Shown here piece by piece: positions 22,731-28,458 of a DNA stretch of 64,000 nucleotides (within the stretch, counting starts at the first letter, position 1; every line of letters begins with the position of its first letter). A model generated the notes under the pieces. That model worked only from the letters and a program-made list of their open reading frames with translations, was not told where the DNA came from and made no database searches. Origin of the DNA: Haloparvum sedimenti (GTDB taxonomy: Archaea; Halobacteriota; Halobacteria; Halobacteriales; Haloferacaceae); NCBI RefSeq assembly GCF_001462205.1, contig NZ_LKIR01000062.1, forward strand, positions 13,143 to 77,142, given 5' to 3'. Position numbers and translations under genes: made by a program.

Positions 22731-23390
22731 ATGTACCGCGACCTCTCGCACCCCCTCCGGACGGGCGCGCCGACCTACCCCGGCGACCCGGACGTGTCGG
22801 TCGAGCCGGCCGCGACCCACGAGGCGGACGGTTACTCGGTTCACTCGGTCGAGCTCGGCAGCCACGCCGGCACCCACGTCGACGCGCCGCGACACACCGA
22901 ACCCGACGGCGCGACGCTCGACGACGGCGGGGTCGGCGAGTGGGTGTTCGACGCGCGCCTCCTCGACCTGACGCCGTGTGAGGCCCGGGAGGGGATCGAA
23001 CCGGCCGCGTTCCCCGACGACCTCGACCCCGAGATCGACCTGCTCGTCGTCCGCACCGGCTGGGCCAATGCGTGGGGAACCGACGCCTACCGCGACCACC
23101 CGTTTCTGACCCCCGCGTTCGCGGAGCGATGCGTCGACGCGGGCGTCGGTGTCGGTATCGACGCGTTCGGTCCCGACCCGACCGCGCCCGCGGAGCCGAC
23201 CGACCACGAGCCCGGCGACGAGCCGACTGGCTTCCCCGCCCACCACGCGCTGCTCGGCGCGGACCGGCCGATAGTCGAGAACCTGCGGAACCTCGCCGGC
23301 CTGCCCGACCGGTTCACCGTCTACGCTTTCCCGCTCCCGCTCGCGGAGGGCGACGGCGCCCCGGCACGAGTGGTCGCGGAGACACGGTAG
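22731..23390 (+). CDS. cyclase-family metal hydrolase, probable kynurenine formamidase
   Basis: A 219-residue member of the KynB/cyclase family, which hydrolyses N-formylkynurenine and related amides. The family metal motif HxGTHxDxPxH is intact at residues 45-55 (HAGTHVDAPRH), and the later VGIDAFGPDPT and HHALLGADRPIVENL blocks are also family features. The kynureninase gene at 14568 supports a role in tryptophan breakdown, though the lysine operon lies between them. Other substrates are possible, since the family is broad. It has its own promoter space after the operon terminator. Confidence 0.8.
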   Translation: MYRDLSHPLRTGAPTYPGDPDVSVEPAATHEADGYSVHSVELGSHAGTHVDAPRHTEPDGATLDDGGVGEWVFDARLLDLTPCEAREGIEPAAFPDDLDPEIDLLVVRTGWANAWGTDAYRDHPFLTPAFAERCVDAGVGVGIDAFGPDPTAPAEPTDHEPGDEPTGFPAHHALLGADRPIVENLRNLAGLPDRFTVYAFPLPLAEGDGAPARVVAETR

Positions 23391-23429
23391 GCGGTCGGGC
23401 TCTGGCTCCGGTCACCGCCTCCGATGCGG

Positions 23430-24383
23430 TCAGTATCGCCGGCGTGCGCCGACCGCGAGGATGCAGCCGATCGCGAGCGTCCCGGCGCCGAGGAACCCCG
23501 CCGCCAGCAGCGCGTCCCCGGAGAGGGACCCGCCGCCCGGGACGCCGACGCCGTCATCGTCGTCCGAACCCGTTCCCGACGGTTCGTAGTGGTAGTTCGG
23601 GTGAATGGGCTCGTACGTCCGGTTCTTCACGGTGAGGTTGCCCTCGGGTTCGCCCGCGAACTCGACCATGTCGAGGCTGTCGTTCATGTCCGAGTAGTCG
23701 TTCGTGTACAGCCGAACTTCCCCGCGGACGACCGCGTCCGGCGGCTCGTTCAACTCGATGACCGCGGTCCCCGTCTCGTTGGGCCTCGCCTCCGGCCGTC
23801 CGACCGCGTTCCCGGTCTCCTCCGTCGAGACGACGACGTGCTGGCGATGCGCGTGCGGAGTCGGGTTCTCGACCGTGACGTGGAGTTCCGTCCGCGGATC
23901 CGCGGCCGTCCCGTTCGCCACGAGGTCGACGTTCGTTATCTGCGGGAGCGGCATGTCGTCCGCGTCCGCGGCCGTGGGCGTGGCGTTGTAGGTGTGCTGG
24001 ATGGTTGGGCCGAAGGTTCCGACTTTTACCGTTTGCTGATGTTCGGAGGGGTCCTGCATAACCGCGAGATCGAAGGTCCAATACCCGGTTTCCCCCGGTT
24101 GGAGGTCCTCGCCGACATGCCGGATCGTCGTTCTGACGACCTGAAGTGCGAATGACGCCTCCCGGGTTTGTCTATTGAGGTTCAGTGACGAGACCTCCAA
24201 CGTCATGTTCGAGTAGAAGTCAGCGGTGATCTGGAAGCCCCGTTCCGTTTGTATCGTCTCCGAGTGGACGATCTCTCCTCCCTCGTTGGCTCCGTTCCCT
24301 TCATCCGCCAGTCCAGGTGCTGCCATTGTACCGATCGTTCCGATCAGTAACATCCCGATGAGCAGCACTCGTCCGTCGATCAT
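23430..24383 (-). CDS. secreted, C-terminally anchored surface protein, second gene of a coupled pair
   Basis: A 317-residue protein of unknown function. The N-terminus is a Sec signal (MIDGRVLLIGMLLIGTIG) with cleavage likely after residue 26. The rest is predicted beta-rich ectodomain with several N-glycosylation sequons. A linker rich in Asp and Gly (GTGSDDDDGVGVPGGG) precedes a single membrane span (about 289-312) and an Arg-rich end, so it is anchored with a cytoplasmic tip. The ATG at 24383 is chosen because it overlaps the upstream TGA (ATGA) and begins the signal peptide. Residues 1-128 lie in an AT-rich patch unlike the rest of the gene. Confidence 0.75.
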   Translation of the reverse strand: MIDGRVLLIGMLLIGTIGTMAAPGLADEGNGANEGGEIVHSETIQTERGFQITADFYSNMTLEVSSLNLNRQTREASFALQVVRTTIRHVGEDLQPGETGYWTFDLAVMQDPSEHQQTVKVGTFGPTIQHTYNATPTAADADDMPLPQITNVDLVANGTAADPRTELHVTVENPTPHAHRQHVVVSTEETGNAVGRPEARPNETGTAVIELNEPPDAVVRGEVRLYTNDYSDMNDSLDMVEFAGEPEGNLTVKNRTYEPIHPNYHYEPSGTGSDDDDGVGVPGGGSLSGDALLAAGFLGAGTLAIGCILAVGARRRY

Positions 24384-26150
24384 TTCACACCACATCCCGC
24401 GCCACGGCAATCGTCTCGCTCCGCCGGATCGCGGTTTCTGAAGCGCTCTATCATCTCTCGCTCCGAGACAAATCCTTCTTCGACTATCGTTTGTTTGAAC
24501 ACATCGACCTTTCGGATGTTTCTTTCGACCGCGTCGGTACCGGGCGAGTAGTACACGGTGTCACCTTCGACCGTTAGTTCGGACTGAGTGACCGTCTCCG
24601 GATCAGCTACTTCATCCGTCGTCTCCGAACGCGTTCCGACCTGTTTTCGCAACGTCCACGTGGTCGACGTGGTTGTTCGACCGACTCGGTACTCATCACT
24701 CCTGACGTGGTTGTCCACCACCAGACGGTCGGAGGTCTCCATGTAGTCTCGCCACTCCGAGATGCTCGGTCGAACGACAACCTGCTTACTCGCCACGTAC
24801 GTGTACTCGGTGACCGTCGTGGTCTCCGTTTCTTTGTGCTGGTACTCCGTCTCAGTCACTCGGTCACGAACCTTGACCGAGCGGGAAGATCCACTCCGAC
24901 GATCCCAGGGACTGTAAGCGTGTGACGACCAGTACGTCCCCCCATACCTGCTTCGATACTGATATTCTGTCCGATACTCCGCGGACTGGATCGTTCGCGT
25001 CCGCTGCCGGCCGGTGTATCCAGAGGAGATCGACGATCGCCACTCGTACGATGTCGTCACTTTTTGCCGCCTCGTCGAGGTTCGTCCCGACTTATGCCAC
25101 CCGTCAGATCGGCGGACGAAATGGCGTCGCATGAGTGAACTATCGAACTCTTTACTCTTCGTTTCAATAATTGCATCCTGTTCGTGGTGGCGCTGGATCG
25201 TGTAGACCGTGTTCTGCTTCGTCTCGGTTACTGAGTATCCACGATCCTGACTCGCGCTCTTCAGATGCTCGGACGAGACAGACACCTCGTCGTACACCGG
25301 GGATTCCACCTCGTAGCGCGAATCCGTCACGTCGATGTTGTAATAGAACTTTCCAGTTCTGCTGAGTGTCGGGAGAGGTAATCTGAAGCTCCGTTCCGTT
25401 TGCTCTGGATGTTCTGCATTATACACGCGTAGGGCAACGGGATCGTTTAGATAGGATCCCAGAGTAGTTTCGATGTCCCCGATCCAGCGGTTTTCCTGTT
25501 CTGCCGGGTCTTTTGTCGTCTCGACCTGACCAGGGCCATTGATCAGTTCAAATCGAACGTCCGCTTTTTCGAAGTTCTCTTCCTTCAAATAGAATTGTTC
25601 TGTTTTGAAGCTCAGACCGAGTGTCTCGTAGGGATCGTACTCCGTTTGACTGTGCGTAATCAGGTCGATTGTCGGCGAATAGTACTCGTCCAGCGTCGTC
25701 GTTTTTCTGACCTCTTGGTCGTGTCCGTCAGTGATCGAGAGGGTGATCGTGCTTTTGACGTTTTTTACGCTAGATGAGAATACGGGGCTTTCCTCGACGA
25801 GGTCAGGTAACCACGTGAATGCGAGTTCCGTCCCGTCCGGGTCGAATGAATCACTAGCGTCGATTACGATCCGGGGAACGTGGTTGTTCTTTTCGTGCTC
25901 AACGTGGACATTCAACCTTGCTTCGGGTTTACTTTCGACGACGTCAATGTATGTCACATCATTATCGACGACGAGATTCTGCCGCCGATCAAGGAGCAGA
26001 AGCTCCTCCTCGACCTGGTAGAGATATGGTGATGTGTAGGCGACGTTGATGGTCTTAACGAGGGTTTCATTCGATATTTCTTTTGTATCGACATTCAATT
26101 CTTTCTCATTTTCTCTTTGGTATCTGGTCTCCATCCCGACCCCCTCAATC
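24000..26150. other. AT-rich patch crossing the junction of two surface-protein genes
   Basis: Base composition drops sharply inside this block. By hand count 25561-25620 holds 24 G+C in 60, while 27061-27120 in the same gene holds 48 in 60. The edges are near 26150 and 24000 and do not coincide with gene ends: the block covers roughly residues 441-1030 of the large protein and 1-128 of its partner. Reading frames continue through both edges. This points to recombination with a divergent allele. Confidence 0.75.
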
Positions 26151-27472
26151 GGGTAGCCGTTCAGGTCCACGGTCACCTTCATCGTCGCGGTGTAGCGTTC
26201 GGGGTCGATTCGCTCGTGGTAGGAGTCGACCGGCGTGTTCAGGACCTCGATCGACTCGATATGCGGGATGCCGGCGACTTCGACGGTCTCCGTGACGCGA
26301 ACGGTTTGCCCGTAGGTGTCGGTCGCGACCGCGGTCACCTCGTATTCGGTGTTGTCCTGGAGCCCGTCCGCGCGGAACTCCGACTCGTGGCGCCGGACGC
26401 CTCGCCGCGTCGCGCGCTCGACCAGTTCGCCGTCGATGAACACCTCCACGGAGCGGAGCGCGTTCAGGTCGTCCTCCGCGACGACTGCGCCGCTGATGGT
26501 CCCGTCATAGCCGTCGAGGTCGCGGAGCCGGAGGTCGACCGGCGGCTTCGCGACCACCTCGCGGGTCCCGTCCGCGAACGTCGCCACGCGCTTGCTCCCG
26601 TCGCGGTACTCGACGAGCGCGGAGAGCCGGTGGCGGCCGGGCTCCCACGTTCGGCGGAGCGTCTCGCCGGTCGCGACCGGCTCGCCGTCGACGCGCCAGG
26701 TGACCGCGGCGACGGCCGCGCCACCGCCGGAGTCGACCGAATACGTCGCAGTGAGCGGTTCCTCCTCGAACACCTCCTGTGGACCGTGGATCGTCGGGTC
26801 CTCTGTCGCCGCGGTACCGCCGTACCAGCCGGAGCGGTCGTTCGCCTCCTCCGGCTCCGTAACCGAGACCGTCCGGTCGTCGCTCGCCGACTGGTCGGCG
26901 GCGTCGAGAACCGTCACGTCGACGGTTCGGGGATCGAGCGTGGTGATGGTGCGGTTCAGGGTGGCTTCGGCTCCCGGCCGGTGCTCGGTCTCGACGACCT
27001 CCCCGTCGACTCGCCAGACGACGCGGTCGATGGGCGCGTCGCCCGGCTCGATCGCGGCCGTGAAGGCGGCGGTGTCGCCGACCGACACCGCCGACGGGCC
27101 CTCGAGCGCGACCGCGGGCGGGTCCCCCTCGGAGACGCGGACGTGGAGCGTGTCGCTGGCCGTCCGCCCCGCGTCGTCGGTCACGGTGAGCGTCACGTCG
27201 TAGGTCCCTATCGCGGCCGCCTCGAAGGCCGGCGTTCGGCCGGTCGGCGTCGCGACCGTGGTACCGTTCGGAGCCATAACCTCCCACTCGTAGGCGACGA
27301 TCTCACCGTCCGGCGCGTGCGATCCGCCACCGTCGAGGTACACGGTCGTCCCCTGTGAGACCGACTGGTCCAGACCGGCGTCGGCCAGTGGCGCTTCGGC
27401 GTCGGCCGCTCCCGCGAGCGGAACGCCGAGAAACAGACACACGAATAGCAGTGCGAGCGCGTACCGTCTCAT
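24380..27472 (-). CDS. large secreted PKD-domain surface protein
   Basis: A 1030-residue extracellular protein. A signal peptide (residues 1-22, MRRYALALLFVCLFLGVPLAG) is followed by a PKD domain (about 28-112; YEWEVM, GTYDVTLTVTDDAG) and further Ig-like repeats to about 440. The distal part is a second PKD-like segment (DASDSFDPDGTELAFTW near 540) and then a Tyr, Arg, Thr and Glu-rich region from about 760 to 960. There is no C-terminal membrane span; it may be held by the coupled protein at 23430, whose start overlaps its stop (ATGA). Adhesion or cell-surface recognition is plausible for PKD proteins, but no activity can be read. Confidence 0.75.
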   Translation of the reverse strand: MRRYALALLFVCLFLGVPLAGAADAEAPLADAGLDQSVSQGTTVYLDGGGSHAPDGEIVAYEWEVMAPNGTTVATPTGRTPAFEAAAIGTYDVTLTVTDDAGRTASDTLHVRVSEGDPPAVALEGPSAVSVGDTAAFTAAIEPGDAPIDRVVWRVDGEVVETEHRPGAEATLNRTITTLDPRTVDVTVLDAADQSASDDRTVSVTEPEEANDRSGWYGGTAATEDPTIHGPQEVFEEEPLTATYSVDSGGGAAVAAVTWRVDGEPVATGETLRRTWEPGRHRLSALVEYRDGSKRVATFADGTREVVAKPPVDLRLRDLDGYDGTISGAVVAEDDLNALRSVEVFIDGELVERATRRGVRRHESEFRADGLQDNTEYEVTAVATDTYGQTVRVTETVEVAGIPHIESIEVLNTPVDSYHERIDPERYTATMKVTVDLNGYPIEGVGMETRYQRENEKELNVDTKEISNETLVKTINVAYTSPYLYQVEEELLLLDRRQNLVVDNDVTYIDVVESKPEARLNVHVEHEKNNHVPRIVIDASDSFDPDGTELAFTWLPDLVEESPVFSSSVKNVKSTITLSITDGHDQEVRKTTTLDEYYSPTIDLITHSQTEYDPYETLGLSFKTEQFYLKEENFEKADVRFELINGPGQVETTKDPAEQENRWIGDIETTLGSYLNDPVALRVYNAEHPEQTERSFRLPLPTLSRTGKFYYNIDVTDSRYEVESPVYDEVSVSSEHLKSASQDRGYSVTETKQNTVYTIQRHHEQDAIIETKSKEFDSSLMRRHFVRRSDGWHKSGRTSTRRQKVTTSYEWRSSISSGYTGRQRTRTIQSAEYRTEYQYRSRYGGTYWSSHAYSPWDRRSGSSRSVKVRDRVTETEYQHKETETTTVTEYTYVASKQVVVRPSISEWRDYMETSDRLVVDNHVRSDEYRVGRTTTSTTWTLRKQVGTRSETTDEVADPETVTQSELTVEGDTVYYSPGTDAVERNIRKVDVFKQTIVEEGFVSEREMIERFRNRDPAERDDCRGAGCGVK

Positions 27473-27621
27473 TCAGTCGAGGAATCATAATCTCTCTTTC
27501 TGAGTTAAGTGTTCGGATCTATGGGTCGAATTATCTCTGATAATTTTGTGTTTAATGTCCTCGGAACGCGGATCGATGGAGAAGCCCGACAGTTATACCC
27601 TCCGCGCCCGACGCCGGAAAC

Positions 27622-28458
27622 GTGCAGAAGACCGTACTCATCACCGGCTGTTCCTCGGGTATCGGCCGCGCGACGGCGCGGGCGTTCAACGACGAGGGCT
27701 GGACGGTGTACGCGACCGCACGGAACCCCGCGGACGCACAGACGCTCGGGGACGAGGGCTGCGAGCTCGCGACGCTCGACGTGACGGACCAGGCGGACGT
27801 CGACCGCGTCGTGGACCGGATCCTCGACGAGGAGGGGGCCATCGATTGTCTGGTCAACAACGCCGGATACGGCCAGTTCGGCCCGCTGGAGGACGTGCCG
27901 ACGGAGAAGGTCCACGAGCAGTTCGACGTGAACGTGTACGGTCCTCATCGGCTCATCAGGGCCGTCCTCCCGCACATGCGCCGCGAGCGCGAGGGGACGA
28001 TCGTCAACCTCTCGTCGGTCGCCGGACGCGTCGCGTTCCCCGGCGGGGGCGTCTACAGCGGTTCGAAGTTCGCGGTCGAGGCGATGTCCGACGCGCTGCG
28101 CGGCGAGGTATCCGAGTACGGCATCGACGTGGTCGTCGTCGAGCCCGGTCCGGTTCGGACGAAGTTCAGTGACCGCGCGGAGCGTGAGGCTGAGGACGAC
28201 GAGGACGGGGTGGACCGGTCCGGCGCGTACGAGGACCTCTACGATGTCTTCGACGACGCGCAGCTGATCGGCGGGGACGGCCCGGGCTCCGTCGAGCCCG
28301 AACTCGTCGCGGCCGAGATCCTCAACGCGGCGAGCGCCACGAAGCCGCCCGCACGGGTCCAGCCCGGGACGGCCGCCCGGGTCGGCGTGCTGGCGCGGTT
28401 CCTCCCCGACGCGGTACGCGACAAGGGGTACGAACTGCTCGCGAAGCTGACGCGGTGA
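27622..28458 (+). CDS. short-chain dehydrogenase/reductase
   Basis: A 278-residue classical SDR. The cofactor motif is TGCSSGIGRAT (8-18), the structural NNAG motif follows at about 80, and the catalytic Ser, Tyr and Lys occur as NLSSVAG and VYSGSKFAVEAM (about 145-156). It starts at GTG 27622; the next ATG would cut into the Rossmann fold. SDRs of this type act on small carbonyl or hydroxyl compounds, and the substrate cannot be read. It is divergent from the large surface protein; the 149-base gap between them is AT-rich and should hold both promoters. Confidence 0.88.
   Translation: MQKTVLITGCSSGIGRATARAFNDEGWTVYATARNPADAQTLGDEGCELATLDVTDQADVDRVVDRILDEEGAIDCLVNNAGYGQFGPLEDVPTEKVHEQFDVNVYGPHRLIRAVLPHMRREREGTIVNLSSVAGRVAFPGGGVYSGSKFAVEAMSDALRGEVSEYGIDVVVVEPGPVRTKFSDRAEREAEDDEDGVDRSGAYEDLYDVFDDAQLIGGDGPGSVEPELVAAEILNAASATKPPARVQPGTAARVGVLARFLPDAVRDKGYELLAKLTR

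Follow-up and report, generated by a model that had tools for sequence, protein, structure and literature searches.

Replaced segments within an old AT-rich valley of a haloarchaeal surface-protein gene pair

A stretch of 64,000 nucleotides from Haloparvum sedimenti (the window, which here always means this whole stretch) holds two neighboring genes across which the base composition changes abruptly: the G+C content falls inside the reading frame of the first gene (gene A) and recovers only inside the second (gene B). The preliminary description of this DNA took the AT-rich part for one exchanged patch that had replaced the distal part of A together with the proximal part of B, and proposed that the two parts travel together because they touch each other. 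Is the valley a piece of foreign DNA that arrived recently, and what has been exchanged within it? We approached both questions by comparing the pair with its orthologues in other haloarchaea.

The gene pair and the age of its AT-rich valley

Gene A (24380..27472, minus strand) encodes a secreted PKD/Ig-repeat protein of 1030 aa, as judged from its open reading frame, its orthologues and a Pfam PKD_4 match at residues 26-113 (E 2.7e-14; 53.4 bits vs a cut-off of 27). A PKD domain (PF18911/PF00801) scored over the curated cut-off in the window's A and in 16/16 members of the scanned set of A proteins. Gene B (23430..24383, minus strand) encodes the partner, a protein of 317 aa that has a hydrophobic leader, two Ig-like domains and a C-terminal membrane helix in its AF2 model and follows A in the orthologous loci. 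The window's B matched no Pfam family. Its start is most likely the ATG at 24383, which overlaps the TGA of A as ATGA; the TTG at 24410 is a less likely start. Both reading frames stay open across the AT-rich patch.

Searching with A, we found relatives at E <= 1e-50 in 9/171 genomes of the same family and 43/394 genomes of the class, the window's own genome included. A contig scan with the single A protein gave no match, and the same scan with the alignment as query gave matches. The comparison set consisted of 52 orthologous A-B loci from other haloarchaea, belonging to several families, and of the window (53 loci in total). The A proteins of the 52 other loci are 27-33% identical, and a B homologue comes after A in all of them (52/52), including L066, where B is cut by the contig end. 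In L055, B is broken by a frame change and A is intact. At a further locus with A, L163, a homology search did not find B.

The surroundings of the pair are also constant in most hosts. Two subunits of a 2-oxoacid:ferredoxin oxidoreductase are the divergent upstream neighbors in 35/53 loci, and an Mrp-type ATPase and MoaA are the downstream neighbors in ~30 loci, all of them named from sequence reading. As the pair keeps a fixed place beside housekeeping genes in 35/53 genomes, most hosts do not carry it as a mobile island. The window's pair is placed between cyclase and short-chain dehydrogenase genes (region 22731-28458), and not at the oxidoreductase/Mrp/MoaA site. Since this genomic place differs from that in most haloarchaea, the pair appears to have moved or to have been separately gained in the window's lineage.

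The AT-rich valley (24000..26150, unstranded; GC 0.54, or 0.537 to three places) was delimited by GC windows and by GC at the codon positions. Counting the letters, we obtained exactly the G+C values reported earlier, 48/60 at 27061-27120 and 24/60 at 25561-25620. In 300-bp windows, GC is 0.70-0.75 at 26300-27349 and 0.47-0.54 at 25100-26299, and it has returned to 0.67 by 23750-24049; overall, it lies at 0.47-0.59 between about 24050 and 26150 vs 0.70-0.75 around the locus. The GC3 of A is 0.82-1.0 over codons 51-450, 0.54 at 451-500, and 0.50-0.74 over the remaining codons. The corresponding values for B are 0.66-0.76 over codons 1-150 and 0.88-0.94 beyond. The drop inside one frame and the recovery in the next gene were thus described correctly, as GC3 falls at A codon ~450 and is back near B codon 150. 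Compared with 2-kb windows taken over 140 kb of the contig, GC in the valley is 3.3 SD under the average, and no other dip of that length in these 140 kb goes as deep. A run of AT-rich stretches (minimum 0.46), perhaps an island, occupies 100-131 kb of contig C103, outside the window; that contig otherwise has 68% GC.

We ruled out amino-acid make-up as the sole cause of the valley, because a GC3 deficit of -0.41 persists at A 451-500 after correction for amino acids and local codon use. Weak codon selection across the whole A gene was ruled out by the GC-rich first 400 codons of A, and position within A therefore matters.

The GC3 valley was present at the same codons in 53/53 loci. Averaged over these loci, the GC3 of A is 0.65 at codons 401-450, falls to 0.39 at 451-500, stays at 0.52-0.66 up to codon 1000 and is 0.43 at the end of A; that of B is 0.42-0.44 at codons 1-100, 0.59 at 101-150 and 0.66-0.77 later. 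The deficit at A 451-500, corrected as above, averages -0.48 and is found in every locus. Since 52/52 other loci carry the step at the same codons, the composition step is old: it is a long-term property of this part of the module and no recent foreign patch. Arrival of the patch as one piece from an AT-rich donor, carrying distal A and proximal B, would suit the sharp edges and the 3.3 SD dip, but as the cause of the step it is refuted by the other loci, which come from several families, and we give it hardly any credence. Exchange could still have occurred on top of the old step in the window's genome. More generally, a sharp GC step within a gene can be old and conserved and need not be a recent import.

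The preliminary description had expected an old compositional feature to show the same step together with uniform divergence. The step is indeed shared, but the divergence is far from uniform. Mean pairwise identity is 0.53 at A 401-450, drops to 0.18 at 451-500 and is about 0.2 at the end of A and the start of B, which leaves two hypervariable segments. Across 28 bins, variability correlates with the GC3 deficit (rho 0.63, p 3e-4).

Replaced blocks at two segments

The first hypervariable segment, V1 (25943..26140, minus strand), covers A residues ~445-510 and was placed by the identity of 0.18 at 451-500, by a 214-bp replacement in the species pair L113/L114 and by the map of alignment breaks. 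The second, V2 (24053..24610, minus strand), covers A residues ~955-1030 and B residues 1-~110, and was placed by an identity jump in the pair L056/L061, by unalignable blocks and by a mapped edge. The window positions of both were mapped from exchanges in other species pairs (Halorussus, Haloprofundus and Halobacterium). Their outer edges, 26140 for V1 and 24053 for V2, lie close to the edges of 26150 and 24000 proposed for the patch.

In a comparison of 29 close pairs from 24 loci, alignment breaks were most frequent at V1 and V2; they hardly occurred in A 1-440, from B residue 181 onward or in the flanks. In close species pairs, V1 and V2 are replaced by unrelated sequence and the remainder stays alignable, so parts of the two genes have indeed been exchanged without frame breakage. 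The exchanged DNA is not the one patch that had been envisaged, but two segments, separately exchanged, within an old AT-rich frame. The AT-richness extends to the middle of the valley (A 521-830), where replacement is rare, and exchange alone therefore does not explain the composition.

For V2, the Haloprofundus pair L056/L061 shows a nucleotide identity of 38-53% over the final ~60 codons of A and the initial ~120 codons of B, followed by an abrupt rise to 88% within B after V2. Performing blastn, we find that ~525 bp at V2 are left unaligned in this pair and ~485 bp in the Halobacterium pair L069/L121, with sharp edges in both.

Short variable segments in fixed frames are typical of systems that program variation within one genome, where silent copies, an invertible segment or a diversity-generating retroelement would supply V1 and V2. 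Such a source is very improbable here: we found V1-like sequence only once in the window's genome, significant V1 matches in 18 Halorussus genomes fell at the A locus only, the repeats around V1 and V2 were not convincing, and no recombinase or reverse transcriptase was noticed among the recurring neighbors across the 53 loci.

The pair might otherwise act as a contact-dependent weapon similar to polymorphic toxins, whose variable parts would be cargo or a receptor-binding tip and not a self/non-self receptor. A similar hypothesis was proposed for VARTIG, an Ig-protein system of Thermococcales (PMC8416519). However, no toxin-like domain was recognized in any scanned A and neither A nor B matches a Pfam toxin family, although a toxin of an undescribed kind may escape such scans. 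The downstream gene set is not variable, and V1 sits in the middle of A and not at its end. We consider a weapon improbable.

The remaining alternative is rapid evolution in place, in which the segments would have diverged through point mutations and short indels, with positive or relaxed selection and poor codon adaptation, and with no exchange of alleles. Several observations would fit this: V1 is saturated in most species pairs (22-45% identity), a significant synonymous excess at V1 is seen in some pairs only, and variability follows the GC3 deficit. The Halorussus pair L113/L114 argues against it. These two loci lie in ~75 kb of syntenic DNA of ~93% identity, which contains a single unalignable island of equal length, V1, with 214 bp in each; the other breaks differ in length and behave as insertions or deletions. 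The A genes are ~92% identical overall vs 33-45% over some 60-70 codons (V1). At identical residues, the same codon is used in 5/17 cases in V1 vs 749/913 outside it (p 4e-6), and in 7/19 when the V1 edges are re-set (p 2e-5). As the synonymous sites have been replaced too, V1 in this pair is not the product of ordinary divergence under protein selection. The abrupt edges of V2 also speak against rapid evolution, which we regard as unlikely, although it keeps more in its favor than the other alternatives.

The V1 of L113 resembles that of more distant species (G436, G440 and G419) more closely than its sister's V1, as expected for alleles older than the species. In a tree of this short segment, L113/L114 as a clade was not rejected (AU test, p 0.137), a result that rapid evolution would also accommodate. 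We found no donor with a nearly identical V1, and relatives in viral contigs were not confirmed.

Given the replaced blocks at V1 and V2, we infer that very divergent alleles are swapped in place by homologous recombination through the conserved flanks. The donors would most likely be close relatives with a different allele. Gene conversion in Haloferax volcanii nearly always takes in both of two sites that lie 600 bp apart, and it yields whole genes, not chimeras (PMC8223754). Such long haloarchaeal tracts, set beside a 214-bp island within flanks of ~93% identity, suggest a donor with near-identical flanks, the rest of whose tract is invisible. Near-identical donor flanks in turn suggest that V1 alleles segregate among close relatives.

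Why the valley is AT-rich may follow from the same exchange. Alleles too unlike to pair would likely escape the process that keeps the genome GC-rich; for GC-biased conversion, there is bacterial evidence (PMC4450053). Alternatively, the alleles may be drawn from an AT-richer pool; the data are compatible with either cause. Taken as a whole, we favor, with a probability of roughly 0.6, an old two-gene surface module in which V1 and V2 alleles are exchanged in place, with a role in recognition and with a valley of long standing.

Predicted architecture of the two proteins and their possible contact

Using AF2, we obtained for A a string of PKD/Ig-like domains followed by long beta strands (mean pLDDT 75.5, pTM 0.33). 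A predicted Ig-like domain at residues 404-512 (25937..26263, minus strand), drawn from the AF2 strands and the conserved columns, contains V1. Most strands of this domain belong to V1 in the model, and the opening part of the domain, around PVDSYHERIDPERY, ranks with the best conserved columns. The long beta strands at residues ~707-1000 (24473..25354, minus strand), modeled at moderate confidence, are a possible stalk. In this long-strand region, the window's A does not have a stretch of up to ~65 residues at ~835-850 (window ~24920-24970) that is present in most other A proteins; it is rich in Thr, Arg and Tyr and often has two cysteines. Foldseek returned generic Ig-repeat matches only, with low TM-scores.

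The model of B (mean pLDDT 73) shows a hydrophobic leader and two Ig-like domains, at 35-133 and 147-255, from which a loose linker leads to a helix at 290-316. This hydrophobic helix, with its RRR end, is the predicted membrane helix (23436..23516, minus strand). From the AF2 layout and the constant pairing of the genes, B probably holds A at the cell surface through its C-terminal membrane helix. V2 thus unites the tail of A and most of the first Ig-like domain of B.

A is secreted, and the N-terminal Ig domain of the membrane-bound B would meet the C-terminal tail of A; contact between these two parts is plausible. The earlier proposal, that parts are exchanged together because they touch, holds only weakly. 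V2 crosses the junction in some pairs, but the cleanest V1 swap (L113/L114) keeps its B, and co-divergence of V1 and B over 50 loci was not significant once the remainder of the genes was accounted for. The partial rho was 0.06 for V1 to B and 0.08 for the A tail to B, both within the permuted range; for V1 to the A tail, it was 0.20 vs a permuted maximum of 0.14. Among 103 closer pairs, which are not independent and were taken without permutation, the N-terminal domain of B against segments of A gave partial values of 0.39-0.55.

The C-terminus of A in the window carries a cysteine pair, C1022 and C1027 (24392..24409, minus strand). Among the final 40 residues of A, we counted two cysteines in 34 of 50 loci, none in 16 and never one, despite the hypervariable tail. 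The loci without the pair include Halobacterium, whose B carries two cysteines instead.

A possible recognition role and related systems

Selection for rarity or recognition is the usual explanation for long-lived alleles of surface proteins. The V1 and V2 variants would most likely serve cell-surface recognition, be it to tell self from non-self when cells touch or mate, or to evade viruses; rare types would be favored, and alleles would outlive species splits. Mating in haloarchaea proceeds by cell fusion and is more efficient within a species (PMC5496957). Haloarchaeal recognition molecules are little known, and a fixed locus whose segments can be swapped is a direct candidate for setting the specificity of contact or mating, or for a part in virus adsorption.

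The closest known system, compared by its described features, is VARTIG of Thermococcales (arCOG07710; Makarova et al. 2021, PMC8416519). In both, the gene of a large secreted archaeal protein with Ig repeats precedes that of a second Ig protein, and an Ig domain of the large protein is hypervariable via between-species exchange at one place (here V1, in a predicted Ig-like domain). Unlike in VARTIG, where the C-terminal Ig domain of the large protein varies, the variable domain here is internal (~445-510 of 1030), and a second variable segment, V2, spans the tail of A and the first domain of B. None of the A and B proteins carries the C-terminal motif D[ND]NxxxG[GD] of VARTIG at its end. In contrast to the variable downstream gene set of VARTIG, B always comes next here, then conserved housekeeping genes in most loci, and the haloarchaeal locus is at a fixed place in most genomes. 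As three VARTIG features are lacking, we did not file the A-B pair as VARTIG.

The VARTIG authors looked for a counterpart in other archaea, among them haloarchaea, without success (PMC8416519); the present locus brings to haloarchaea an Ig variability that was reported absent outside Thermococcales. They could not place the edges of exchange, whereas haloarchaeal genomes are close enough to do so. Tentatively, and with less confidence than in the reading above, we suggest that A and B form a widespread haloarchaeal allorecognition-like module with long-lived, swapped alleles in two segments, one of which crosses the junction so that interacting parts move together. It would then be the first VARTIG counterpart outside Thermococcales.

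TraA/TraB of myxobacteria (PMC6372800) offers a functional analogy only, and a relation was not detected. It is likewise an overlapping two-gene operon for a surface receptor and its partner; TraA acts in homotypic self-recognition, and the alleles of its single variable domain depart from the species tree (PMC6372800). However, TraA/TraB has a PA14-like variable domain, cysteine-rich repeats and an outer-membrane barrel, whereas A and B have PKD/Ig domains and a predicted membrane helix. PA14 was absent among the Pfam matches of A in 16 loci.

Searching the literature, we found no paper on the A-B gene pair and no previous description of segment exchange in it. Haloarchaeal surface proteins are also varied by homologous recombination in the cell-wall genomic island 1 of Haloquadratum walsbyi, where a ~250-bp exchange in the S-layer gene is described and the variation is ascribed to virus pressure (PMC4535781). 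This exchange is the nearest haloarchaeal precedent that we found in the literature. The Haloquadratum case is a large island of changing gene content, whereas A-B is one fixed two-gene locus with two defined segments.

A further group of haloarchaeal reading frames (L010-L015 and L169-L195), mostly of 640-950 aa, has no likeness to the remainder of A and shares its N-terminal PKD part at 37-54% identity.
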